Shown here: piece after piece, positions 11,881 to 26,899 of the stretch
How the letters are laid out: every line of letters starts with the position of its first letter
Numbering within the stretch: position 1 is the first letter of the stretch
Source of the DNA: Undibacterium sp. KW1
GTDB lineage: Bacteria > Pseudomonadota > Gammaproteobacteria > Burkholderiales > Burkholderiaceae_D
Length of the DNA stretch: 64,000 nt
Assembly: GCF_009937955.1 (NCBI RefSeq)
Contig: NZ_AP018439.1
Location: 1,550,001-1,614,000 of the forward strand
Direction of reading: 5' to 3'
The notes under the pieces: generated by a model
Database searches by the model: none
What the model was told of the DNA's origin: nothing
What the model saw: only the letters and a program-made list of their open reading frames with translations
Translations under genes and position numbers: made by a program

Positions 11881-12032
11881 GTGGCATTTTGTGATGCATA
11901 TCGCGTCAATTTACTCTGCGGGCCCTTTTGCCAAACATTGATGTTTTAGTCTCAATAAATTTGATCACTATAGATTCAATGGTGTGGTAGATGGCAACTG
12001 GCAGCAGAAGAATGAACATTCAGGGGAAGACC

Positions 12033-15000
12033 ATGAAGAAAATAAATAAACCGCTAACCGTGTGTTTGATCGGCTCTTTAATTGGGCAGTTAATTGCGCC
12101 GAGCTTGGCATACGCAACAATATCAAATGCTCCACCACTGGTGAAGCCCAATGTGCCACCTAATATATTTTATACCCTCGATGATTCTGGCTCCATGATG
12201 TGGGAAATGATGCCAGATAATATCGCCAGAACGGGTAGTGGTGACGTTACGGGTAAGGGCTATGATAACTATATTGATGGTTGCGGTGGTAATTGCTGGG
12301 TGACCAATGTGTTTCCCAAGCCAGCCAATGTGTATAACGTTGGCGGCGCAGGCGATTATGATATTGGTCACAGTATTGTTGTTGGGTTTAATCATAATAT
12401 TACAGTCGCGCGTTGGCGTTCGTCAGACGTCAACAAGGCGTACTACGATCCCAAGATTTTGTATCAGCCTTGGGCGGATCCTAATGGTGGCCTGATGGCA
12501 CCTGCCAACCCCTTATCAGCGCTCTATAACCCTGTTGCACCAAGTGGTGGAACAAATACCAATGCAATTAATTTGTCAGTTAATCAGACTTATGCCAACG
12601 GCGCTTATGGATGGCTGGCTGATGACGCTACATCGTACAACACTAATGGCAGAACGATTTTCCCAGCCCTTTATTATGTATATAAAGGCACCCTAGGATG
12701 CAACCAGTCCACGCTGGCTTGCTTTGATCGTTATGAAATCAGGACTGGAACAGTTTTTCCTGCGAAAGCGGCAGCACGTACAGACTGCGCTGGTTCGGCA
12801 TGTACAATACCTGAAGAGTTGCAGAATTTTGCCAACTGGTTCCAATATCATCGGTCCCGTATCCTGACCGCGCGCGGCGGCAGTGGCCAGGCTTTTTCCA
12901 AGCAAAATTCTACGATCCGCGTTGGATTTGGTACCATTAATACTACTGGCACTGTTATTAACAAGGTCTCAAATGACTTCAGTGCCGCTAATAAAACCAA
13001 TTTCTTGAATACTTTGTACAAGCAGAGAATGCCAGCTGCGGGTACTCCATTGCGCAAGGCTGTTGATGAGGTTGGTCAATATTTCAAAGACACGTCAATT
13101 ACTGGTCCATGGCAGACGACTTCCGGTGTCGGGTTGGCCTCAACGCAATTAACTTGCCGCCAAAATTATAATATCTTAATGACTGATGGCTATTGGAACG
13201 GTACGGCTGCTGGAGGTGGGCGCAATGGTAACTATGATGGTACCAATGGCCCAACAATCACCAGGCCAGATGGAACAACTTATCAATACACACCCGCTAA
13301 ACCGTACACCGATACTTTTAGCGATACGCTGGCAGATATAGCCTTTTATTATTGGGCAAATGATTTGCGCACAGATTGGCCGGCAGCGAAGAAAAATGTA
13401 CCAACCACATCGGCTGACCCAGCTTTTTGGCAACATCTGACGCAGTTCACAGTGGGTTTGGGTGTCAAAGGCACGCTGGATCCAAGCACTGATTTGCCCG
13501 CCTTGACGAGTGGTGCCAAGGTCTGGCCAGATGGCTCTATCAATCAGATTGACGATTTGTGGCATGCCGCTGTTAATTCCCGTGGCAAGTACTTTAGTGC
13601 ATCCAATCCTACGGAGTTTGCCGCAGCACTTGATTCTTCTTTGAACACGATAGCAGAGCGTGTCGGCGATGCTGCTGCAGTAGGTACTTCCAGTAATACC
13701 GTGCGCGCAGGTAGTAGTATCTTTACTTCGACTTACCGCACGTCTGACTGGTCAGGTCAACTGGTGCAAAGATTGTTGGATGATAACGGCGTCATTACAG
13801 GGACTGGCTGGACTGCGACGACTCCTGTTTTCTCCACCAGGCAAAATAATGTATTTACCTATATCGATTCGGCAATAAAAGGTAAAGTCTTTAGTTACTC
13901 CAATCTTGCACCTACAGACAAGGCTTATTTTGATACAGAGGCAGCTACTTATCCGGCAACCACCGTCACTGGAACCAATATAGTCGATTACATCATCGGC
14001 GGCCCGGATTTGAACCGTCTTCGTCCGCGTACGGTTCCATTTGGTGATTTTGTAAACTCTGCTCCTCAATACGTCAAAGCAGGTGATGACAGTGGCTATA
14101 GTTATATGCCAACTGGCACGCCTGGCAAAGGCACTTATGGTGCCTATTTGTTGAGTAAGTACAATCGTACCCCTATGGTATACATAGGGGCAAACGATGG
14201 CATGTTGCATGCGATTAATGGAACCACAGGTGTAGAGGAGTTTGCTTATATTCCAAAAGCCGTTATGAGCAATTTGCCATTGCTGTCACGCACAACCTAT
14301 GGGCACAGATTTTATGTTGATGGTACGCCTACAGTAGGTGATTATTATGATGGTGGCTGGAAAACAGCTTTGGTTGGGACGACTGGTGCTGGTGGCAGAG
14401 CTGTTTACGCCATGGATGTCACAGTGCCTACTCGCCCTAGCTTTAATGAAGGCAAGATTTTGTGGGAAATTAACTCTACAACACAGCCTGAATTAGGATA
14501 CACCATTGGTACTCCCCAAATCGGACGGATGCCTAATGGTGATTGGGTTGCCATCTTGGGGAACGGCTATGAAAGCAATTCCAAAAAGGCCATGTTGTTC
14601 ATCATTCGCCTGAGTGATGGCGTGGTGACCAAAATAGATACTGGTGTGGGAAATGCAACTACACCTAATGGACTGGCTACGCCAAAATTGATTGTTGGCT
14701 CTGATGCAACTATTAAAGCCATTTTTGCTGGTGATTTGCTGGGTAATTTGTGGAAATTTGATGTAAAGAGTTCAGGCACTACGATTGCATTTTCTGGCAC
14801 ACCTTTATTTCAGGCAAAAATTGGTGGTGTTGCACAGCCAATCACAGTCCAGCCTGATATGATTCCACATAGTAATGGTGGAATGATGTTGCTGTTTGGC
14901 ACAGGGAAAATTTACGAAACGGAAGATGCTTTGAATACTGACGTTCAATCTTTGTATGGCGTGTGGGATCAAACTGGTGCATCTGGTGTCAGTTCTCCAA

Positions 15001-15524
15001 CTGCTATCTCAAGTAGTCAGTCTGCCCTGCAAAAACGAACCTTGAGCTGGTCTGGTTCCAATGCTTATACAGTCAGTAATGAAACGATTGACTGGACAAG
15101 TAAACGTGGCTGGTATATGAATTTGAACTTGAGTACAGGTGAACGTCTGACCATTGATCCGCAAATGTTCTTTGATGAGATAGTGTTCACCACTATTATT
15201 CCAGCCAGTGCTGTAGATACTTGTTCTTCAGACGGTAAATCAACAACATTTATTTTGAATGCCATGAACGGTAATGTTTTCCCTTACCCTACGTTTGATA
15301 CGAATGGCGATAATAAAGTGACTTCTGCAGATGCGATTATTGCTGGTAAGCAGGGTGGTTTGACCTTTGGATCTACGTTGCTGAAAAATGGTTCGTCGGC
15401 AATTATTTATCAACCGGTATCATCTGGTGCAGGTTTATCCGGTAATGGAACAAATGCTTCAGCTATTGCTCCAAGTTACAACCCTACCAGACGTATCTGG
15501 AAGCAGATATTGCGTACTGATTAA
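12033..15524 (+). CDS. pilY1: Type IV pilus tip adhesin PilY1 (PilC/PilY family)
   Basis: 1163 residues, the usual length. A signal peptide (about 1-28, ending AYA) is followed by a von Willebrand A-like domain with the metal motif DDSGSM (D50, S52, S54) and an MTDGYWNG segment. The C-terminal PilY1 beta-propeller (about 670-1110) contains YIGANDGMLHAINGTTGVEE. Near its end is an EF-hand-like calcium loop, DTNGDNKVTSAD (D1089-D1100). Calcium binding by this domain controls pilus retraction in Pseudomonas; the same role is inferred here. The ATG at 12033 is chosen for the AGGGGA ribosome site. The protein is exported and sits at the pilus tip as an adhesin and assembly factor. Confidence 0.95.
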   Translation: MKKINKPLTVCLIGSLIGQLIAPSLAYATISNAPPLVKPNVPPNIFYTLDDSGSMMWEMMPDNIARTGSGDVTGKGYDNYIDGCGGNCWVTNVFPKPANVYNVGGAGDYDIGHSIVVGFNHNITVARWRSSDVNKAYYDPKILYQPWADPNGGLMAPANPLSALYNPVAPSGGTNTNAINLSVNQTYANGAYGWLADDATSYNTNGRTIFPALYYVYKGTLGCNQSTLACFDRYEIRTGTVFPAKAAARTDCAGSACTIPEELQNFANWFQYHRSRILTARGGSGQAFSKQNSTIRVGFGTINTTGTVINKVSNDFSAANKTNFLNTLYKQRMPAAGTPLRKAVDEVGQYFKDTSITGPWQTTSGVGLASTQLTCRQNYNILMTDGYWNGTAAGGGRNGNYDGTNGPTITRPDGTTYQYTPAKPYTDTFSDTLADIAFYYWANDLRTDWPAAKKNVPTTSADPAFWQHLTQFTVGLGVKGTLDPSTDLPALTSGAKVWPDGSINQIDDLWHAAVNSRGKYFSASNPTEFAAALDSSLNTIAERVGDAAAVGTSSNTVRAGSSIFTSTYRTSDWSGQLVQRLLDDNGVITGTGWTATTPVFSTRQNNVFTYIDSAIKGKVFSYSNLAPTDKAYFDTEAATYPATTVTGTNIVDYIIGGPDLNRLRPRTVPFGDFVNSAPQYVKAGDDSGYSYMPTGTPGKGTYGAYLLSKYNRTPMVYIGANDGMLHAINGTTGVEEFAYIPKAVMSNLPLLSRTTYGHRFYVDGTPTVGDYYDGGWKTALVGTTGAGGRAVYAMDVTVPTRPSFNEGKILWEINSTTQPELGYTIGTPQIGRMPNGDWVAILGNGYESNSKKAMLFIIRLSDGVVTKIDTGVGNATTPNGLATPKLIVGSDATIKAIFAGDLLGNLWKFDVKSSGTTIAFSGTPLFQAKIGGVAQPITVQPDMIPHSNGGMMLLFGTGKIYETEDALNTDVQSLYGVWDQTGASGVSSPTAISSSQSALQKRTLSWSGSNAYTVSNETIDWTSKRGWYMNLNLSTGERLTIDPQMFFDEIVFTTIIPASAVDTCSSDGKSTTFILNAMNGNVFPYPTFDTNGDNKVTSADAIIAGKQGGLTFGSTLLKNGSSAIIYQPVSSGAGLSGNGTNASAIAPSYNPTRRIWKQILRTD

Positions 15525-18277: not shown

Positions 18278-19030
18278 ATGATCGTCTTGATTACAGGCGC
18301 AAGTTCAGGTTTTGGTGAAGAAATGGCACGCAAATTTGTCCGCGAAGGCCATAAAGTCATTGCTGCAGCACGCCGCAAAGACAGGCTGGACGCCTTGCAA
18401 GCAGAGCTAGGCGCTGCCTTGTTGCCAGTCACGCTGGATGTGACCAGCAAAGATTCCATCAAACAGGCTTTGGCTGGATTAAGTGCCGAATGGAAAAATA
18501 TTGATGTGCTGGTCAATAATGCTGGTTTGGCCCTAGGTACAGAGCCTGCCCACCTGGCGTCCCAGGATGAATGGGATACCATGATAGACACCAATACCAA
18601 GGGCCTGGTGACAGTTACCAGGGCCATCCTGCCAGACATGGTGGCACGTGGCAGTGGTACGGTCATCAATATAGGTTCGGTGGCTGGTGAAACACCTTAT
18701 CCAGGTGGCAATGTTTATGGCGCGACCAAGGCTTTTGTCGATCAGTTCACCCGCAATTTGCGTGCTGATCTGGTTGGTACAGGTGTTCGTGCAACCAATA
18801 TTGCTCCTGGCCTATGTGGTGGTACTGAATTTTCCAATGTGCGCTTCCGTGGCAATGATGATGCGGCAGCCAAGGTCTATGAGGGCACCGTACCGCTGAC
18901 AGCCATCGATATCGCTGAAACAGCCTACTGGATCGCTACTTTGCCTGCGCATGTGAATATCAATCACATAGAAATGATGCCTACTTGCCAGGGCTATGGG
19001 CCGCTGGTCATCAAGCGCAATACTGCTTGA
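18278..19030 (+). CDS. ydfG: NADP-dependent 3-hydroxy acid / serine dehydrogenase (YdfG-type SDR)
   Basis: 250 residues, classical short-chain dehydrogenase. It oxidises L-allo-threonine, serine and 3-hydroxy acids with NADP in E. coli. Landmarks: cofactor motif TGASSGFG (6-13), basic AARRKDR for NADP, NNAG (near 81-84), catalytic Ser in INIGSVAGE and YGATK. The C-terminal PAHVNINHIEMMP is typical of YdfG. Start ATG 18278 is preceded by GAAGGA at 7 nt; a TTG at 18263 in frame is disfavoured. It is transcribed divergently from glyA. The same family includes malonic semialdehyde reductases (RutE/YdfG-linked), so the physiological substrate is uncertain. Confidence 0.93.
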   Translation: MIVLITGASSGFGEEMARKFVREGHKVIAAARRKDRLDALQAELGAALLPVTLDVTSKDSIKQALAGLSAEWKNIDVLVNNAGLALGTEPAHLASQDEWDTMIDTNTKGLVTVTRAILPDMVARGSGTVINIGSVAGETPYPGGNVYGATKAFVDQFTRNLRADLVGTGVRATNIAPGLCGGTEFSNVRFRGNDDAAAKVYEGTVPLTAIDIAETAYWIATLPAHVNINHIEMMPTCQGYGPLVIKRNTA

Positions 19031-19159: not shown

Positions 19160-19570
19160 ATGAAAACAGAATTTGTATGGCCGGTCAGGGTCTACTATGA
19201 AGATACTGATACCGGTGGCATCGTTTTTTATGCGAATTACCTGAAGTTTTTTGAGCGTGCCCGTACCGAGTGGCTCAGGGCGGCAGGCGTCAATCAACAG
19301 CAAATGGCAGATGAGCATGGCCTGATGTTTGTCGTCAAAGCCACTGCAGTCGAGTATCATGCACCCGCGAGGCTGGATGATGAACTAAGACTCACCGTCG
19401 TGGTCGAAAAGCTGGGCAGGGCGTCTGTACAGTTTGTACAAGAAGCCTGGTGTGGCCAGCGTTTGCTGGCCTCAGGCAAGATCAAGGTTGCTTGTGTCAG
19501 CAAGACTGAGGTCAGACCGGCGGCAATTCCTGCTGACGTGCTGGCACAGATAGACAGAGATGCTGGCTGA
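19160..19570 (+). CDS. ybgC: YbgC-type acyl-CoA thioesterase (tol-pal associated)
   Basis: 136 residues, hot-dog fold. The active-site signature YYEDTDTGGIVFYANYLKFFERARTEW (about 12-38) carries the catalytic Asp. YbgC hydrolyses short-chain acyl-CoA and acyl-ACP and in E. coli interacts with phospholipid-synthesis enzymes; it is cytoplasmic. It heads the classical ybgC-tolQ-tolR order, 59 nt ahead of tolQ. No strong ribosome binding site is seen before the ATG at 19160. Confidence 0.95.
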   Translation: MKTEFVWPVRVYYEDTDTGGIVFYANYLKFFERARTEWLRAAGVNQQQMADEHGLMFVVKATAVEYHAPARLDDELRLTVVVEKLGRASVQFVQEAWCGQRLLASGKIKVACVSKTEVRPAAIPADVLAQIDRDAG

Positions 19571-19629
19571 AATTATTTTATTTTAGGGCGGCAACATTGC
19601 CCGGTGTTTTGTTTTTGAATTGATTCAAT

Positions 19630-20325
19630 ATGACTGTTACCCAAGACCTTTCATTTTTAAGTCTGATCACGAATGCCTCTATTCTGGTGCAACTGGTCAT
19701 GGCATTGCTGCTAGGCGTGTCACTGACGAGCTGGACTTATATCTTCAGTAAAATGTTCGCCATCAAAAAAGCGCGTGGACAAACTGAAGAGTTTGAACGC
19801 AATTTCTGGTCTGGTGGCAATCTGGTTGATCTGTATGCAGCGGCGACCAATAGCCGTCGTACTGGCCGCGACACTAGCGGTGCGCTCGAACGCATCTTTG
19901 AAGCCGGCATGAGCGAATATCACAAGGTAAAGACAGCCAATAAAACCACGCTGGATGCCACCGCCATGCTCGATGGCGCGCGTCGTGCCATGCGTGCGTC
20001 TTACCAGCGCGAGATGGATTTGCTGGAATCACACCTGTCCTTTCTTGCGTCCGTCGGCTCGGTCTCGCCTTATATAGGTCTGTTCGGCACGGTCTGGGGC
20101 ATCATGAATTCTTTCCGTGGTCTGGCGAATGTGCAGCAGGCGACACTGGCTGCCGTCGCTCCTGGTATTGCTGAAGCCCTGATTGCTACTGCGATAGGCT
20201 TGTTTGCTGCTATACCTGCCGTGCTGGCCTATAACCGTTACTCCCACGATATCGATAGACTGGCGATACGCTTTGAAACCTTTATCGAGGAATTCTCCAA
20301 CATTCTCCAGCGTCAGTCACGCTAA
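19630..20325 (+). CDS. tolQ: TolQ proton-channel subunit (ExbB/TolQ family)
   Basis: 231 residues. There are three membrane segments (about 16-37, 135-155, 170-195) and the family motifs LESHLSFLASVGSVSPYIGLFGTVWGIMNSF and AEALIATAIGLFAAIPAVLAYN. With TolR it forms the inner-membrane motor that uses the proton motive force; in the standard system it drives TolA-Pal during outer-membrane constriction. Its neighbours ybgC and tolR support TolQ rather than ExbB. The usual partners tolA, tolB and pal do not follow here. Confidence 0.94.
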   Translation: MTVTQDLSFLSLITNASILVQLVMALLLGVSLTSWTYIFSKMFAIKKARGQTEEFERNFWSGGNLVDLYAAATNSRRTGRDTSGALERIFEAGMSEYHKVKTANKTTLDATAMLDGARRAMRASYQREMDLLESHLSFLASVGSVSPYIGLFGTVWGIMNSFRGLANVQQATLAAVAPGIAEALIATAIGLFAAIPAVLAYNRYSHDIDRLAIRFETFIEEFSNILQRQSR

Positions 20326-20341
20326 GGCAGAGTGAGATAGC

Positions 20342-20785
20342 ATGAGTACCCTGCGTGGCGAACGTAAACGCAAATTCAAGGCAGAGATCAACGTTGTGCC
20401 GTATATCGACGTGATGCTGGTGTTGCTGGTGATTTTCATGGTGTGCGCACCGATGACCAATCCCAGCGTCATCAACCTGCCTACTGCCGGGCAATCTACC
20501 CAGCCGCCATCTGATTATATAGAAATCACCTTGCGGCCCGATGCAGCTTCCACTATCAGCATCAACAGCAAAGCCGGTAACAATGGCAACAACCGCCAGG
20601 AAAGCAAGGAAGAAGCCAAAGACCGCAAACAACTGATGCAAAAACTGCGTGAGTATCATGATGCCAAGCCAGAGTTGTCTGTGCTGGTTTCTGCTGACAA
20701 GGGCATGATTTATGACGAGGTCATACAAGTGATTTCAGAAGCAAAAAAACTGGGTATCAATCGCGTTGGTCTGGCGACCAAGTGA
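20342..20785 (+). CDS. tolR: TolR (ExbD/TolR family)
   Basis: 147 residues: a short basic N-terminus, one membrane helix (about 20-38) with the essential proton-path Asp in NVVPYIDVMLVLLVIFMV, and a periplasmic domain ending VIQVISEAKKLGINRVGLATK. It partners TolQ in the PMF-driven motor. It starts 17 nt after the tolQ stop. A low-complexity linker (NGNNRQESKEEAKDRKQ, about 80-97) lies within the periplasmic part. The next gene, tamA, begins 11 nt after the tolR stop, so the motor genes and tamAB look co-transcribed. Confidence 0.94.
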   Translation: MSTLRGERKRKFKAEINVVPYIDVMLVLLVIFMVCAPMTNPSVINLPTAGQSTQPPSDYIEITLRPDAASTISINSKAGNNGNNRQESKEEAKDRKQLMQKLREYHDAKPELSVLVSADKGMIYDEVIQVISEAKKLGINRVGLATK

Positions 20786-20795
20786 GTTTTTGCAG

Positions 20796-22676
20796 ATGCA
20801 GATAAGACTGCGCCCCTTACTGATGCTGTTCTGTGCTGCCGGTTTATGCGGTGCTGGCTTGGTGAGAGCGCAGCAGTCAGGACAAACTGAAACCTCTTCT
20901 GCTCAATCAACACCAACTGCTGCGTCTGCTCAGTCTGTGCAAATGCCTGAGGCAGACAACGAAGCTGTTTCCACCTCCAGCAGTGGCCGTTTGCAACTGG
21001 TTGCTGCCAAATCACACTGGGCTGATTTGCTGAGGGAACATATCCCTGAATTTGCCAGCAATGCTGAAGCGCAGAATATCACTCCCGCACTGATCAGACG
21101 GTTGCGCCTGGATATCAGCAATATCCTCACTACTGAAGGTTATTTCTCGCCGCAAATCCAGTTTGATAATCCAGATCAGGCGCTGGCACCAGCCTCCACA
21201 AATAAAATCATCCATGTGACTGTGGAAGCCGGCCAGCGCACCATCATAGAAAACGTGTCTGTGAAAGTGCAGGGCCCCATGGCAGACGCGATTGATGCTG
21301 GTGACAAGGCTGTCACTAAAAGGCGACGGGCCCTGCAAGAAGACTGGGGCCTCGCAGTTGGACAGCCATTCCGTGATGCTGACTGGAGTGATTCAAAAAA
21401 TCAGCTGCTGGAAAGCCTGCGCTCAGATGCCTATGCCTCAGCCAGCATGACATCCAGTGAAGCAAAAATAGACGCTGACCAGCATAGCGGCATCTTGCAA
21501 GTAGAAGTCGATAGTGGCCCGGTATTTACCCTGGGTGATTTGCGTGTCACTGGTTTGCAGCGTTACCCTTCCTGGCTCATAGAACGTTATCAGGCACCCA
21601 AAAAAGGTGAGGTTTATTCACGTTCGCGCTTGCTGGATTTCCAGCGTTCCCTGCAAAACTCCGCTTACTTTGCCACCGTCGCAGTAGGCATAGATCCTGA
21701 TCCAGAAAAAGCCGACGCCGTACCCGTGGATGTGACCGTGGTCGAGCGCCAGGCCCGTGACCTGAGCTTTGGTCTCGGTTACAGCACCAACACCGGTTAC
21801 CGCAGCGAAGTTGCCTATCGGGACCGCAATATACTTGAGCAGGCTTGGGATTTGCGCAGTGCCGTCAGGCTCGAGCAGCGCAGGCAACTTGGATATGCGG
21901 ATATTTACCTGCCACCGCGTGAAAGCAAATTCCTCGATTCTTTTGGTGTGCTGGTGGAGCGCGAAAATATCGCCGGTGTGCGCTCCAGCCGTTACGCTCT
22001 CGGCATCAAGCGCACCAGCACACGCGGCCATCTCGAACAACGCCTGGGTCTGAACATCGTCAGGGAAAAAATTTCCCCAGATGGTGAAGCAGAAGAGGTC
22101 AACAAGGCACTGGTTGCCAGCATAGGCTGGACTTGGCGTGATGTTGATCAGCCTTTCGATCCACGTAAAGGGCAGATCTTGCAGTTCGATCTTGCCGCAT
22201 CTGAAAAAGCCTTGTTCTCTGACCAGCGCTTCATACGCAGCTATGCCAAATATCAGCGCTGGATACCAGTTCGCAAAACCGATACCGTGATCTTGCGCGC
22301 AGAGCTTGGTGCTGTTATTTCCAAAGATGAACAGGGGATACCTGAAGATTACCTGTTCCGCACTGGCGGTAGTACCACCGTGCGTGGCTATGGTTACCAA
22401 ACCCTGGGCATACAGCACATAGGCAGCACACGTGGTGGCCGCGTGCTGGCAACGGCCAGCGCTGAATATGTACACTGGCTTAACTCTTCCTGGGGCGCTG
22501 CCACTTTCCTTGACGTGGGCAATGCCGCCGACAACTTTCGTGAGTTGAATTTAAAGCAGGGCATGGGTGTTGGTGCACGTTACAAGACGCCTGCGGGGCC
22601 GATTGCGCTTGATCTGGCTTATGGTCGCCAGACCAAAAAAGTCCGGCTGGATTTTTCTATCGCCATTGCTTTCTGA
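20796..22676 (+). CDS. tamA: TamA, outer-membrane BamA-family protein
   Basis: 626 residues from ATG 20796, which gives a proper signal peptide (about 1-25, ending VRAQ); the frame is open further upstream inside tolR but that is not expected to be used. POTRA domains occupy about 65-330 and a 16-stranded Omp85 barrel the rest, with FRTGGSTTVRGYGYQTLG (the conserved L6-type VRGY motif). It ends in a terminal Phe (SIAIAF), the BAM recognition signal. TamA works with TamB in outer-membrane protein and lipid assembly. The stop is followed at once by the tamB ATG (one nt between), so the two are coupled. Confidence 0.92.
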   Translation: MQIRLRPLLMLFCAAGLCGAGLVRAQQSGQTETSSAQSTPTAASAQSVQMPEADNEAVSTSSSGRLQLVAAKSHWADLLREHIPEFASNAEAQNITPALIRRLRLDISNILTTEGYFSPQIQFDNPDQALAPASTNKIIHVTVEAGQRTIIENVSVKVQGPMADAIDAGDKAVTKRRRALQEDWGLAVGQPFRDADWSDSKNQLLESLRSDAYASASMTSSEAKIDADQHSGILQVEVDSGPVFTLGDLRVTGLQRYPSWLIERYQAPKKGEVYSRSRLLDFQRSLQNSAYFATVAVGIDPDPEKADAVPVDVTVVERQARDLSFGLGYSTNTGYRSEVAYRDRNILEQAWDLRSAVRLEQRRQLGYADIYLPPRESKFLDSFGVLVERENIAGVRSSRYALGIKRTSTRGHLEQRLGLNIVREKISPDGEAEEVNKALVASIGWTWRDVDQPFDPRKGQILQFDLAASEKALFSDQRFIRSYAKYQRWIPVRKTDTVILRAELGAVISKDEQGIPEDYLFRTGGSTTVRGYGYQTLGIQHIGSTRGGRVLATASAEYVHWLNSSWGAATFLDVGNAADNFRELNLKQGMGVGARYKTPAGPIALDLAYGRQTKKVRLDFSIAIAF

Positions 22677-22677
22677 T

Positions 22678-25600
22678 ATGAGCGAAAACGAAAAAAATCA
22701 GACAGAGCAAAAAACGCCCGCTAAAAAAAAGCGGAGTCATTTGCGCCGCTTGAGCATGTTCATCCTCAAGCTGTTGATGATATTGATCGTCGTGTCCGGC
22801 CTCGTCCTGACCTGGATGTACAAAACTGAGAGTGGCACCAGAGCTGCGCTGGCACTGATAGAAAATGTCAGTCTTGGCAGCCTCAAATTCCGTGGCGTGC
22901 AAGGCACACTGGATGACGAACTCAAACTCGACGAATTCAGCTTGGTTGCCCAGGATTTGCATATCAATGGCAGCGCCATCTCCTTGCGCTGGCGGCTTGG
23001 CGCTTTATGGCGACGTCAGCTGGATATCACCAGTCTGCAATTAAGCGCTTTGACTATCGCCAGCAGATCCAGCAAAAAAGCCTCCAGCGTACCTGTTGAT
23101 ATAGGACTACCCTTTAGCCTGAGTGCGCCAAAGCTGGCGCTGGGGCGCTTGCATATCGCTACCCTGACTGATGATGGCAAACAGCTGGAGACCCTGAAGC
23201 TCAGTGCACTGACTGGCAGTTTTTCTTATCAAGACAATTTATACAAAGCGCAAACCACATTCAGCAGCCCCTGGGGTAATTTGAAAGGCGAAGCTGCACT
23301 GGGCAGCTACACTCCTTTCAAGCTGGATAGTCGCCTGAGCCTGCAAGGCCAGGTCCAGGAGGACATCCCGCCCGTCATTTTGCAGGGCGTGGTTTCCGGC
23401 AACCTGCATGATATGCAAATCGCGCTGGAAGCTGTATTGGATAGCGCGGCAGAAAAAAATATCCGTAATCAGAACCTGCAAGGACATGCCAGGGGGCGTA
23501 TCAATTCATTTGCTGCGCCGTATGTACGCGAGCTTGACATTGATGTGCAACACTTTGACCCGTCCGCCTGGCAGGTCAATGCACCTCATGCAGACTTGCG
23601 TGTATTGACGAAGTTGAAACCGATAACAGATGAGAAAAATGTAGAAAAAAATACAGGAAAAAACGCGCAAAAAAATACTGTATTTGGTTTGACTGGTCCT
23701 ATCAATATTCAGAACAGCCAGGTGGCCAGCATCAATAAACAAGGTTTGCCAGTGCAGTCGCTGAGTACCAAATTGTTCTGGCAGGGCCAGCATTTGAGTC
23801 TGACAGACCTGGCAGTGCAACTGGCCGGCAAAGGCAAGTTGCAAGGTCAGGCTGATGTTAATTGGCAAGCGGCGCAATTGCAGGCTGACCTGAAACTGAA
23901 TCTGGCTAATATAGACCTGAACCAGATCGACCAGCGCCTGCATGCCAGTAATATCAAGGGCCAGTTTTCTGCACAGACAGCGAAAGACAAAAGCATCAAT
24001 CTGCAAGCACAGTTACAAGATGCCCGCGCCAGCCTGAAAGCAGAAGCCAGTTACCATCCTGAGAAACTGCTTCTCGATTTGAATAAATTTGATCTGCAGG
24101 CAGAAGATGCTCATCTGCAGGGTGCAGGTGACATCAGCTTTGTAGGCAAGCAGGCATTCAACGTCAAGGCCAGCCTCAAAGATTTTGACCCCGCACGCTG
24201 GGTGGCAACACCGGCAGGCCGCTTGCAGGCAGACTTCAGCGCCCGTGGCCAACTGTCGCCGCGCCTTGATGTACAAGTCAATCTGCAGCAATTGCTGGGC
24301 CAATATGCAGGCCAGCCTGTGCAGGCAGCGCTGGATGCGCGCTGGCTGCAAGACCAGCAACTGCAAGTCAGGCAACTGGATGCGCACTTTGGTAAAAATA
24401 CAGTGACAGCACAAGGCAACTGGGGTGGTACCGGTGACAGCTTGAAATTCAATATTGATGCCCAGGACTTGAGTCACCTGAATCCCTTGCTTAGCAACTG
24501 GCAACTGGCATTGGGCGGCAAGCTGAAGGCAGATGCGGTATTGCGGGGCCGTTTCGATGAGCCCGCAGGCAGTCTTGATGCCTTGGCAGAGCAAGTCATG
24601 ATTAAACGTGGTAGCCAGCAATTTACCATTGCCCAGTTAAAGTCCAGCCTGAATCTGGCTAACGGTGCCAAAGGCCAGTTTGATGGCGAGCTCGTGGCCC
24701 AGCATCTGGGTGGTGATCTTCCGGCCCTGAGTTCTGCGCCTGATAACCCCGATAAACTCGCGCATGTCAGTCTCAAATTGCAGGGCAGGCGTGATGCCCA
24801 CAAGCTGAGCCTGGAAACCATCTTTCCTAATAAACAGGTACTGAGCCTGGTCGCGAATGGCAGCATGCAGGCCAGTGCAAAAAATGACACTGCCTGGTCA
24901 TGGAATGGGCAATTGCAGGCCTTGAATTTGAATGGCAAACCTGATCTGCGTTTACAAAGTTCAGCACCATTACAGGTGTCGGCACAGTCTGTACGCCTGG
25001 GTGGCCTGTCGCTGCAAAGCGCACTGGGCAAGCTGGAACTGGAAGAACTGGAATGGACACCTGCCGCACTCAAAACCAAAGGGCAAATCAGCGATGTACA
25101 GGTGCTGGAAATTGCCAAACTGTTTTATCCGCAAAATGCAGTCACAGGTAATCTGCGTCTGAATGCGCAATGGAAATTGCAATTGACCGAGCAAGCCCAG
25201 GGAGAAATCAAATTGCAACGCCAGAGCGGTGATTTGCGCTTCAATGATCCTGAGGGGACTGGTACTTCAGTCGCCCTGGGCATACGTGATGTGCAATTGC
25301 AGATGAAACTGGGTGGCCTGGTCGCCGGTAGCGATAGCGAAAACCTCAGTCTTGATCTGCTTGCCGATGGCAGCCGCCTGGGCCAATGGCAAGCGAAGCT
25401 CAATTCCCGCCTAAGCAAACAAAACGATGCCTGGACCATACTGGCCAGTGCACCCCTCAGTGGCCAGGTCACGGCAGCAGTTCCCGACTTGCAATGGCTG
25501 GGGCCTTTTGTCAATCCTGGGGTGGTACTCAAGGGCAAGCTGAACGCCGATGCGCGCCTGTCTGGCACCATAGGCAAGCCTGGCTATCGCGCCAACCTGG

Positions 25601-26844
25601 CAGGGCGGGAGATGGAAATCGCTTTCGCCTCAGAGGGTTTGTTATTGCCAAACGGCAGCCTGGATGTGCAGATAGAAGACAAACATCTGAAGCTGACGAA
25701 TCTGCAATTTTCCAACACCGTCGCCAACATGCCGCGTCATGCGCAATTCAGGGATGAGAACTGGATAGGCCGCAAAGGTGAGTTCAAGGCCAGTGGTGAT
25801 ATCGACATGGGCAAAGAGACTGGCAGCATACAGGCACAATGGACACAATTTCCACTGCTGCAGCGCAAGGACAGATGGCTGCTGGTATCTGGCCAGGCGA
25901 ATATCGTTGAAGCCAATGATATCTGGAGCCTGACCGGCAAGGTGCTGGCTGATGGCGCCTACTTCAGGCTGCCCAAGTTGCCGCCGCCCAGCCTTTCCAG
26001 TGATGTGGTTGTCGTACGCAAGACTGACAAGGCAGTTACTAAGGCAGCAGAAGCAGAAAGTAATAGAAAAGGTCTCAAGACCCGCATTGATGTCAGCTTC
26101 GACATGGGGCCGCGCTTCGTGTTTGTTGGCCGTGGCCTCGATACGGGCCTGGAAGGCAGCCTGCGGCTGCGTTCCAGCGATGGCAGCCCCTTGCAGGCGA
26201 ATGGGTCCATACGCACCGTCAAGGGCGCGTATGAAGGCTATGGCCAGCAACTGGCAATAGAGCGGGGTATCCTGAACTTCCAGGGGCCACCGTCCAACCC
26301 TGGCCTGAATATCCGTGCCTTGCGCAAGGGTTTGCCTGTTGAAGCAGGGGTAGAAGTGGTCGGTACAGTCAGCGCACCGCAAGTCAGGCTGGTGTCAGAA
26401 CCAGAAGTGCCGGATGCTGAAAAACTCTCATGGCTGGTGCTGGGGCGTGGTTCTGACCAGCTTGCCAGTGGCGACGCCTCATTGCTGATGTCGGCAGCGA
26501 CAGCGATATTTGGTGGTGATGGCAGCCGCAATGTGCCGCGCGACATTGTGCAAGGCCTGGGCTTTGATGAGTTTTCGATAGGTTCTTCATCGAATGGTTC
26601 AGGCAGCCGCCTGCCAGTGCAGACGATTGCCGGTTCAACCGGTACCACCAATGCCACTACCGACCAGGTCGTCAGCGTAGGCAAGCGCATCATGCCGGGC
26701 CTGGTGTTGTCAGTGGAGCGCGGCTTGTCAGATGCCAGTGGCGGCATCAAGCTGAGCTGGCAACTGACCCGGCGCATCAGCATCACAGGCCGTACTGGTG
26801 CTGAGTCTGCGGTGGATGTGAATTACACTTTCTCCTTTAATTAA
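22678..26844 (+). CDS. tamB: TamB, AsmA-like inter-membrane bridge protein
   Basis: 1388 residues from ATG 22678 (MSENEKNQ), directly after the tamA stop. A Lys-rich cytoplasmic start is followed by one membrane anchor (about 29-47) and a very long repetitive beta-rich periplasmic region with many LQGQADV/LKLQG-type strands. The C-terminal TamB domain (DUF490/PF04357) holds YEGYGQQLAIERGILNFQGP... and ends NYTFSFN. The family forms a hydrophobic groove spanning the periplasm and supports anterograde phospholipid transport and outer-membrane protein insertion. It is slightly longer than the E. coli protein (1259). A strong bidirectional terminator follows. Confidence 0.93.
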   Translation: MSENEKNQTEQKTPAKKKRSHLRRLSMFILKLLMILIVVSGLVLTWMYKTESGTRAALALIENVSLGSLKFRGVQGTLDDELKLDEFSLVAQDLHINGSAISLRWRLGALWRRQLDITSLQLSALTIASRSSKKASSVPVDIGLPFSLSAPKLALGRLHIATLTDDGKQLETLKLSALTGSFSYQDNLYKAQTTFSSPWGNLKGEAALGSYTPFKLDSRLSLQGQVQEDIPPVILQGVVSGNLHDMQIALEAVLDSAAEKNIRNQNLQGHARGRINSFAAPYVRELDIDVQHFDPSAWQVNAPHADLRVLTKLKPITDEKNVEKNTGKNAQKNTVFGLTGPINIQNSQVASINKQGLPVQSLSTKLFWQGQHLSLTDLAVQLAGKGKLQGQADVNWQAAQLQADLKLNLANIDLNQIDQRLHASNIKGQFSAQTAKDKSINLQAQLQDARASLKAEASYHPEKLLLDLNKFDLQAEDAHLQGAGDISFVGKQAFNVKASLKDFDPARWVATPAGRLQADFSARGQLSPRLDVQVNLQQLLGQYAGQPVQAALDARWLQDQQLQVRQLDAHFGKNTVTAQGNWGGTGDSLKFNIDAQDLSHLNPLLSNWQLALGGKLKADAVLRGRFDEPAGSLDALAEQVMIKRGSQQFTIAQLKSSLNLANGAKGQFDGELVAQHLGGDLPALSSAPDNPDKLAHVSLKLQGRRDAHKLSLETIFPNKQVLSLVANGSMQASAKNDTAWSWNGQLQALNLNGKPDLRLQSSAPLQVSAQSVRLGGLSLQSALGKLELEELEWTPAALKTKGQISDVQVLEIAKLFYPQNAVTGNLRLNAQWKLQLTEQAQGEIKLQRQSGDLRFNDPEGTGTSVALGIRDVQLQMKLGGLVAGSDSENLSLDLLADGSRLGQWQAKLNSRLSKQNDAWTILASAPLSGQVTAAVPDLQWLGPFVNPGVVLKGKLNADARLSGTIGKPGYRANLAGREMEIAFASEGLLLPNGSLDVQIEDKHLKLTNLQFSNTVANMPRHAQFRDENWIGRKGEFKASGDIDMGKETGSIQAQWTQFPLLQRKDRWLLVSGQANIVEANDIWSLTGKVLADGAYFRLPKLPPPSLSSDVVVVRKTDKAVTKAAEAESNRKGLKTRIDVSFDMGPRFVFVGRGLDTGLEGSLRLRSSDGSPLQANGSIRTVKGAYEGYGQQLAIERGILNFQGPPSNPGLNIRALRKGLPVEAGVEVVGTVSAPQVRLVSEPEVPDAEKLSWLVLGRGSDQLASGDASLLMSAATAIFGGDGSRNVPRDIVQGLGFDEFSIGSSSNGSGSRLPVQTIAGSTGTTNATTDQVVSVGKRIMPGLVLSVERGLSDASGGIKLSWQLTRRISITGRTGAESAVDVNYTFSFN

Positions 26845-26859
26845 AACACTATTAAAAAA

Positions 26860-26899
26860 GGGAAGGCAATCTGTCTGGATTGTCTTCCCTTTATCTTTT
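26860..26899. terminator. Bidirectional terminator between tamB and the M16 peptidase
   Basis: GGGAAGGCAATC (26860-26871) pairs with GATTGTCTTCCC (26878-26889), 12 bp with one G-U and a 6-nt loop. TTTATCTTTT follows on the plus strand, and an A tract precedes the stem so that the minus strand also gets a T tract. Confidence 0.9.

Follow-up and report, generated by a model that had tools for sequence, protein, structure and literature searches.

Tol-Pal operons are usually arranged in the order ybgC-tolQ-tolR-tolA-tolB-pal-cpoB. The window analyzed here, a stretch of 64,000 nucleotides from Undibacterium sp. KW1 that covers 1.55-1.61 Mb of a two-contig genome of 6.69 Mb, resembles this operon in its leading genes, ybgC-tolQ-tolR, which are arranged as usual. 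The genome contains all seven genes, and its kin keep the order tolA-tolB-pal-cpoB. However, tamA and tamB are located between tolR and tolA, and in the sub-clade to which the window belongs tolA-tolB-pal-cpoB are found elsewhere. As in the described translocation and assembly module (TAM), tamA and tamB are adjacent and encode an Omp85 barrel and an AsmA-like bridge, but here the pair resides inside the tol-pal row, and the TamA proteins of the clade form a group of their own in the tree. Split tol-pal loci with Tol parts at two places, which presumably cooperate, have been described for other Proteobacteria. According to the available part of PMC12204202, those loci are broken after tolQRAB or tolQRA and none after tolR, whereas here tolR and tolA are parted and the motor half carries tamAB; the word TamB occurs zero times in the main text of that paper. 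Full-text literature searches, which reached few subscription papers, found no report of a tolQR-tamAB arrangement, and the papers naming tamB and tolQ together concern Zymomonas and, as far as their titles and the beginnings of their abstracts tell, contain no such arrangement. The locus represents a real and fixed variant of the tol-pal operon that is specific to one clade, and its forms make up a clear evolutionary series (Table 1).

Table 1. Features of the tol/tam locus in coordinates of the window.
Feature	Position	Strand	Basis
SDR oxidoreductase (YdfG-like), conserved upstream neighbour	18278..19030	+	profile and kin-locus comparison
ybgC, tol-pal-associated acyl-CoA thioesterase	19160..19570	+	TIGR02799, 166.3 bits (cut-off 141.35)
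tolQ	19630..20325	+	TIGR02796, 282.4 bits (cut-off 221)
tolR, membrane-segment Asp in PYIDVMLV	20342..20785	+	ExbD and TIGR02801 profiles
tamA, Omp85-family barrel and POTRA domain	20796..22676	+	Pfam, NCBIfam and solved-chain matches
tamB, AsmA-like bridge, one N-terminal hydrophobic stretch (residues 27-45)	22678..26844	+	
intrinsic terminator after tamB, 16-pair stem	26857..26892	+	terminator scan

The gene order ybgC-tolQ-tolR-tamA-tamB, as given in an earlier note on this DNA, was confirmed, with gaps of 10 nt between the tolR stop and the tamA ATG and 1 nt between the tamA stop and the tamB ATG, and the terminator which the note had placed at the end of the locus was recovered as well. 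Pfam and NCBIfam profiles support the gene names, with shortfalls on the equivalog cut-offs for three of the products: TolR scored slightly below its cut-off (TIGR02801, 115.5 bits against 127.3; Pfam ExbD, 96.7 over 25.4), and TamA (NF047950, 235.1 bits against 625) and TamB (NF047952, 267.5 bits against 825) scored far below theirs. The sequence features of a TAM are present. TamA has a POTRA domain (Pfam, 38.7 over 21.3) and an Omp85 barrel (Pfam, 101.1 over 24), and TamB, encoded next to tamA, has an N-terminal helix, a long bridge and a C-terminal domain (PF04357, 178.8 over 22.4, residues 1031-1387). By sequence comparison, TamA matched the solved chains 8us1, 4c00 and 9xdc, and TamB matched 9xdc, 23sp and 5vtg. 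The SDR oxidoreductase gene is not part of the novelty, since it also precedes tolQ in L088, a relative whose tol genes are arranged as usual. A 1177-aa ORF is located upstream of the tol/tam locus at 11991-15524 of the window.

The earlier note had described tamA-tamB as standing in place of tolA-tolB-pal, which is misleading. In this genome tolA-tolB-pal-cpoB form a minus-strand row at 3.39 Mb with no tolQR adjoining, and all four products exceed their curated cut-offs: TolA (TIGR02794, 70 bits over 59.45), TolB (TIGR02800, 498.4 over 343.15), Pal (TIGR02802, 140.6 over 125.35) and CpoB (YbgF; TIGR02795, 125.4 over 90.1). A loss of tolA-tolB-pal was thus ruled out. This TolB is the only one encoded in the genome and its gene is 1.82 Mb from tolQ; the usual contiguous order tolQ-tolR-tolA-tolB-pal does not occur in this genome. 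A duplicate TolQR, which the note had considered, was also ruled out, as only the tolQ of the window exceeds the TolQ cut-off among eight PF01618 matches genome-wide. The suggested search for a second tolQR together with tolA-tolB-pal therefore yielded the latter genes with cpoB but no further tolQR, and a megablast search for plasmid copies gave no match. As all Tol parts are intact at 1.55-1.61 Mb and 3.39 Mb, the Tol system is complete and encoded at two places. Other ExbB/ExbD pairs are present in the genome. A tonB-exbB-exbD-exbD row occurs three times (G000:C1 near 1.194, 1.697 and 2.082 Mb; L002, L003 and L004, with the order read in L003), its aligned pieces being 94.6-99.3% identical, and a further ExbB/ExbD-like pair (L007, G000:C1 near 0.987 Mb) follows a bamE-like gene and dapB, all named from their translations alone.

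A scan of named genomes returned 36 loci, of which 31 hold tolR, and tamA follows tolR in every one of these 31. The remaining five comprise two loci beginning within tamA (L112 and L122), a betaproteobacterial MAG (L123; TamA 41% identical) with 6.5 kb of upstream sequence without tolQR, and two loci of distant Bdellovibrionales (L124 and L125). All 32 rows measured, with starts chosen by script, have a gap of -4 to 33 nt between tolR and tamA. After tamB, tolA comes next in 15 kin loci; 14 of them continue with tolB-pal-cpoB, and in the remaining one the contig ends. Such unsplit loci were found in Solimicrobium silvestre, Sapientia aquatica, Undibacterium amnicola, U. seohonense, U. flavidum, U. 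fentianense, Undibacterium Jales W-56 and in MAGs, and in Solimicrobium, Sapientia and one related MAG the gaps along tolR-tamA-tamB-tolA measure only -8 to 18 nt. Because tolA follows tamB in these kin, the ancestral row was tolQR-tamAB-tolAB-pal-cpoB, and tamAB were inserted between tolR and tolA and did not replace tolA-tolB-pal. The earlier note had held that a complete tolA-tolB-pal cluster co-regulated with this tolQR would speak against its proposal, and the kin, in which all of these genes share the same row, come close to that.

The split form was observed in 14 loci in addition to the window; here no tolA is present inside the 10 kb read after tamB, and the tolA row is located elsewhere. 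L110 and L122 count as neither split nor unsplit, since their sequence stops or begins too early. In one MAG (L102 and L166, the same genome), tamB and tolA are 3.6 kb apart, and the interval encodes a TetR regulator together with a Lactamase_B_2 metallo-hydrolase. This pair was located upstream of tolA at L166:9490-11297, L162:4131-6000 and L168:5560-7419. Of the 13 split loci read, two (those of U. rugosum and U. squillarum) have it before the relocated tolA, and the others have various other neighbours at this position.

To determine the distribution of the linkage, genomes were sampled at increasing taxonomic breadth. A TolR match was obtained for 42 of the 43 Undibacterium genomes, and tamA was found directly after tolR in each of these 42; the remaining genome was a 56%-complete assembly. 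As the joint is present in all of these genomes, it is not due to chance, and the same 42-fold recurrence rules out an assembly artefact. A family sample of 116 genomes contained 99 with rows for both TolQ and TamA, and tolQ and tamA were adjacent in eight: five of five with the genus code g1 (Undibacterium), three of three with the code g42 (Solimicrobium silvestre, Sapientia aquatica and an uncultured Oxalobacteraceae MAG) and none of the 91 others, in which the closest same-contig tolQ-tamA pair is 45.6 kb apart. Conservation in relatives, on which the earlier proposal had in part depended, thus holds for Undibacterium, Solimicrobium and Sapientia and does not extend to the rest of the family sample. 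Within the family, tolQ is no more than 3.5 kb from tolB in 105 of 114 genomes, and the nine exceptions are the eight linked genomes and G004, in which tolQ is 1.1 kb from a contig end. Only TolQ-type rows were kept and weaker ExbB-like rows were dropped; a TolQ row was retained in 114 of 116 family genomes and in 98 of 99 matched phylum genomes.

Class (140 genomes, 73 with both TolQ and TamB) and phylum samples (100 genomes, 68 with both), which share some genomes and in which PF04357 spans only the end of TamB, contained a single genome with the two less than 10 kb apart, namely that of the window; direct linkage outside the clade was not found in either sample. In six phylum-level genomes the spacing between tolQ and TamB was 14.7-18.6 kb, with other genes between them. 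Three genomes of one gammaproteobacterial family (f144; L224, L225 and L226) have tolQ and the TamB domain 14.7-15.3 kb apart and in the same direction. In L224 and L225, where the gene calls are clear, cpoB and tamA are 5.5-5.9 kb apart and the intervening genes are partly on the opposite strand, which amounts to a loose Tol/TAM neighbourhood.

The order of events was addressed with two trees. In a TamA tree of 84 rows (quick IQ-TREE, SH-aLRT support), the 33 clade rows, including L112, whose tolR link fell outside the sequence seen, grouped together (100), as did the 15 split genomes (98), and L102 was placed as their sister (98). A TolB tree of 64 rows, representing the unlinked half, gave the same order: the split genomes grouped together (95) with L166 as sister (91), and 32 clade rows were separated from the other family rows (90). 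The tree tool warned of long branches among the rows outside the clade. Judging from these sequences, the simplest history would comprise one tamAB insertion and one break between tamB and tolA, with the small TetR/metallo-hydrolase insertion at the tamB-tolA joint perhaps preceding the break. Several independent breaks, which the varied upstream neighbours of tolA had suggested, were not supported by the TamA and TolB trees. A recent acquisition of tamAB from beyond the family was also not supported, as clade and family TamA branch together, apart from six of seven outgroup rows; L213, the one other outgroup row, falls among family TamA as a long branch, and the TamA tree does not settle the place of the clade within the family. 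TamA of the window shares 92-93% identity with its counterpart in Undibacterium pigrum, 47-63% with clade TamA and 32-41% with the best family TamA outside g1 and g42. Two family genomes with one genus code (g44; L084 and L085) have TamA from two different deep branches, so that replacement or relocation of tamAB may have happened on more than one occasion within the family.

As the insertion and the break are each a single event, they provide no statistical support for a function. The arrangement might be a neutral rearrangement, in which tamAB landed by chance in the operon and was kept since its excision would break an important operon, with no function beyond shared transcription. The occurrence of only one insertion and one break fits such a scenario, and so does the result that, the window aside, none of the class-level (73) and phylum-level (68) genomes with both genes showed direct linkage. 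However, the joint between tolR and tamA stayed within its narrow range in all 32 rows though TamA diverged to about 50% identity, whereas the joint between tamB and tolA loosened and broke. We therefore consider a purely neutral origin possible but rather unlikely.

The linkage is real, tightly spaced and conserved across the clade, and a link between Tol and TAM was therefore worth proposing. The specific claim that TolQR powers TamAB was not supported, and the membrane helices count against it. The helix by which TolA docks on TolQ carries a conserved Ser (S18) and a conserved His (H22; PMC12583513, in part). The membrane histidine was detected in 33 of 34 TolA rows, both split and unsplit, a count in which L102 and L166 represent the same genome, L171, the only miss, begins at a contig end, and for L103 the pattern caught an upstream string while the printed sequence shows the histidine. 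The position of the serine, four residues before the histidine, reads Ala in the printed rows, and thus only half of the SHLS-type motif of TolA is kept. In TamB, by contrast, a histidine within the most hydrophobic 19 residues occurred in only two of 31 rows, which belong to two sister species, and the other 29, including that of the window, have none; L110 and L113 were skipped because of contig ends, and L114 was counted with an evidently incomplete N-terminus and a best stretch of only 0.87. In the window and in L091 the literal string SHLRRLS precedes the TamB helix; L090 and L092 lack this string, and it was taken as chance. When TolQ was aligned to chain 8odt, which we take to be E. coli TolQ, S28 was kept (S31), I29 was replaced (L32) and the position of N5 read S. 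The Asp in PYIDVMLV of TolR is, judged by resemblance, the proton-path Asp. TolQ and TolR thus display the TolA-binding and proton-path positions of a Tol-Pal motor despite the L and S substitutions. From the known contact between TolA and TolQ, TolQR is predicted to serve TolA still, and no contact with TamB is predicted.

These helices weigh against a direct drive, in which the N-terminal helix of TamB would dock on TolQ in the manner of TolA and proton flow would move lipids or proteins. Such a drive would fit the conserved adjacency, the tight spacing and the finding that at the break tolQR stayed with tamAB rather than with tolA. Yet TolA keeps its TolQ-contacting histidine, the TamB helix of the window has none, and the genome has no second TolQR. 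In addition, anterograde phospholipid transport in E. coli is described as diffusive and not energy dependent (PMC11226057, in part), which makes the premise of the earlier note, an unresolved energy source of TAM, weaker than stated, and E. coli TamB is reported to be targeted to the poles and not to division sites (PMC12977461, in part), where the Tol proteins gather (PMC12204202, in part). The main text of a paper on the TamAB structure, as far as available, contains no word starting with 'proton' or 'tol' (PMC12800296). Direct proton drive of TamAB is unsupported by the sequences compared; we regard it as very improbable, and a proton-driven bridge as a long shot.

Two further arrangements of motor and bridge were considered. 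TolQR and TamAB might form one assembly in Undibacterium and its sister lineage, in which the motor would gate or localize TamB via a contact that does not involve the histidine, e.g., through the periplasmic domain of TolR, so that the proton motive force would control when and where lipid and outer membrane protein transfer occurs and TolA would be a second, competing output; this we consider highly improbable. Alternatively, TolA might have been driven by another ExbBD pair since the break, leaving TolQR as a motor for TamAB only. The genome does contain other ExbB/ExbD pairs, and the distance between tolB and tolQ would allow for it. However, among the window and its three closest relatives, all of them split, TolQ is 97.8-100% and TolR 99.3-100% identical, where TamA is 90-93% and TamB 83-86% identical. 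As TolA also retains the motor-binding histidine, and tolQ, tamAB and tolA share one row in the unsplit kin, a motor reserved for TamAB is barely credible.

We favor, with moderate confidence, the reading that tamAB was inserted into the tol-pal operon and the row was later split, that TolQR still drives TolA, and that tamAB is co-expressed with the Tol motor, which would tie the supply of lipids and outer membrane proteins to envelope maintenance. The insertion between tolR and tolA would have occurred in the common ancestor of Undibacterium, Solimicrobium and Sapientia and would have produced the row ybgC-tolQ-tolR-tamA-tamB-tolA-tolB-pal-cpoB. In one Undibacterium sub-clade, which includes the genome studied here, this row would have broken at the tamB/tolA joint, and tolA-tolB-pal-cpoB would have moved elsewhere. 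TolQR would remain the Tol motor acting on TolA, now encoded at a distance, and together with TolA, TolB, Pal and CpoB would constitute an ordinary Tol-Pal machine, while TamAB would be an ordinary TAM made from the same message as the motor. The account builds on the observed order, spacing and distribution of the genes, on the single insertion and single break on two trees, on the full set of Tol parts and on the TolA histidine.

A single transcript probably covers tolQR-tamAB. A weak 6-pair terminator-like site at 20766-20781, which overlaps the end of tolR just before tamA, counts against a single message, as would a conceivable internal promoter ahead of tamA, in a consensus scan that overall was at shuffle level (10 terminator-like sites against 9.4 and 6 promoter-like sites against 6.4). 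Such a shared message would couple production of the bridge, which supplies phospholipids and outer membrane proteins, to production of the motor, which holds and constricts the outer membrane. Any benefit would thus arise through co-expression, and a joint dosage could balance lipid supply and lipid accumulation in the outer membrane. TamB is a proposed phospholipid supplier (PMC12977461, in part), and tol-pal mutants accumulate phospholipid in the outer membrane, although a direct role of Tol-Pal in lipid traffic is considered doubtful and any role indirect (PMC7391070, in part). As another bridge, YhdP, is also present (745.6 bits over 519.15), TamB need not be rate-limiting.

Bridge genes inside a motor operon represent a natural genetic link between two systems of outer membrane maintenance, and the intact, insertion-bearing and split forms provide a ready comparative series. 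They also demonstrate that the conserved tol-pal order can accommodate two additional genes (about 6 kb) and can be severed between the motor and transducer genes. Within the displaced half, TolB of this genome (G000:C1:3393690-3394982, corresponding to L010:5691-6983) shows 87-88% identity to that of the three closest relatives, compared to 94-98% among these three, and its terminal branch in the TolB tree measures 0.16 compared to 0.009-0.039 in these relatives.
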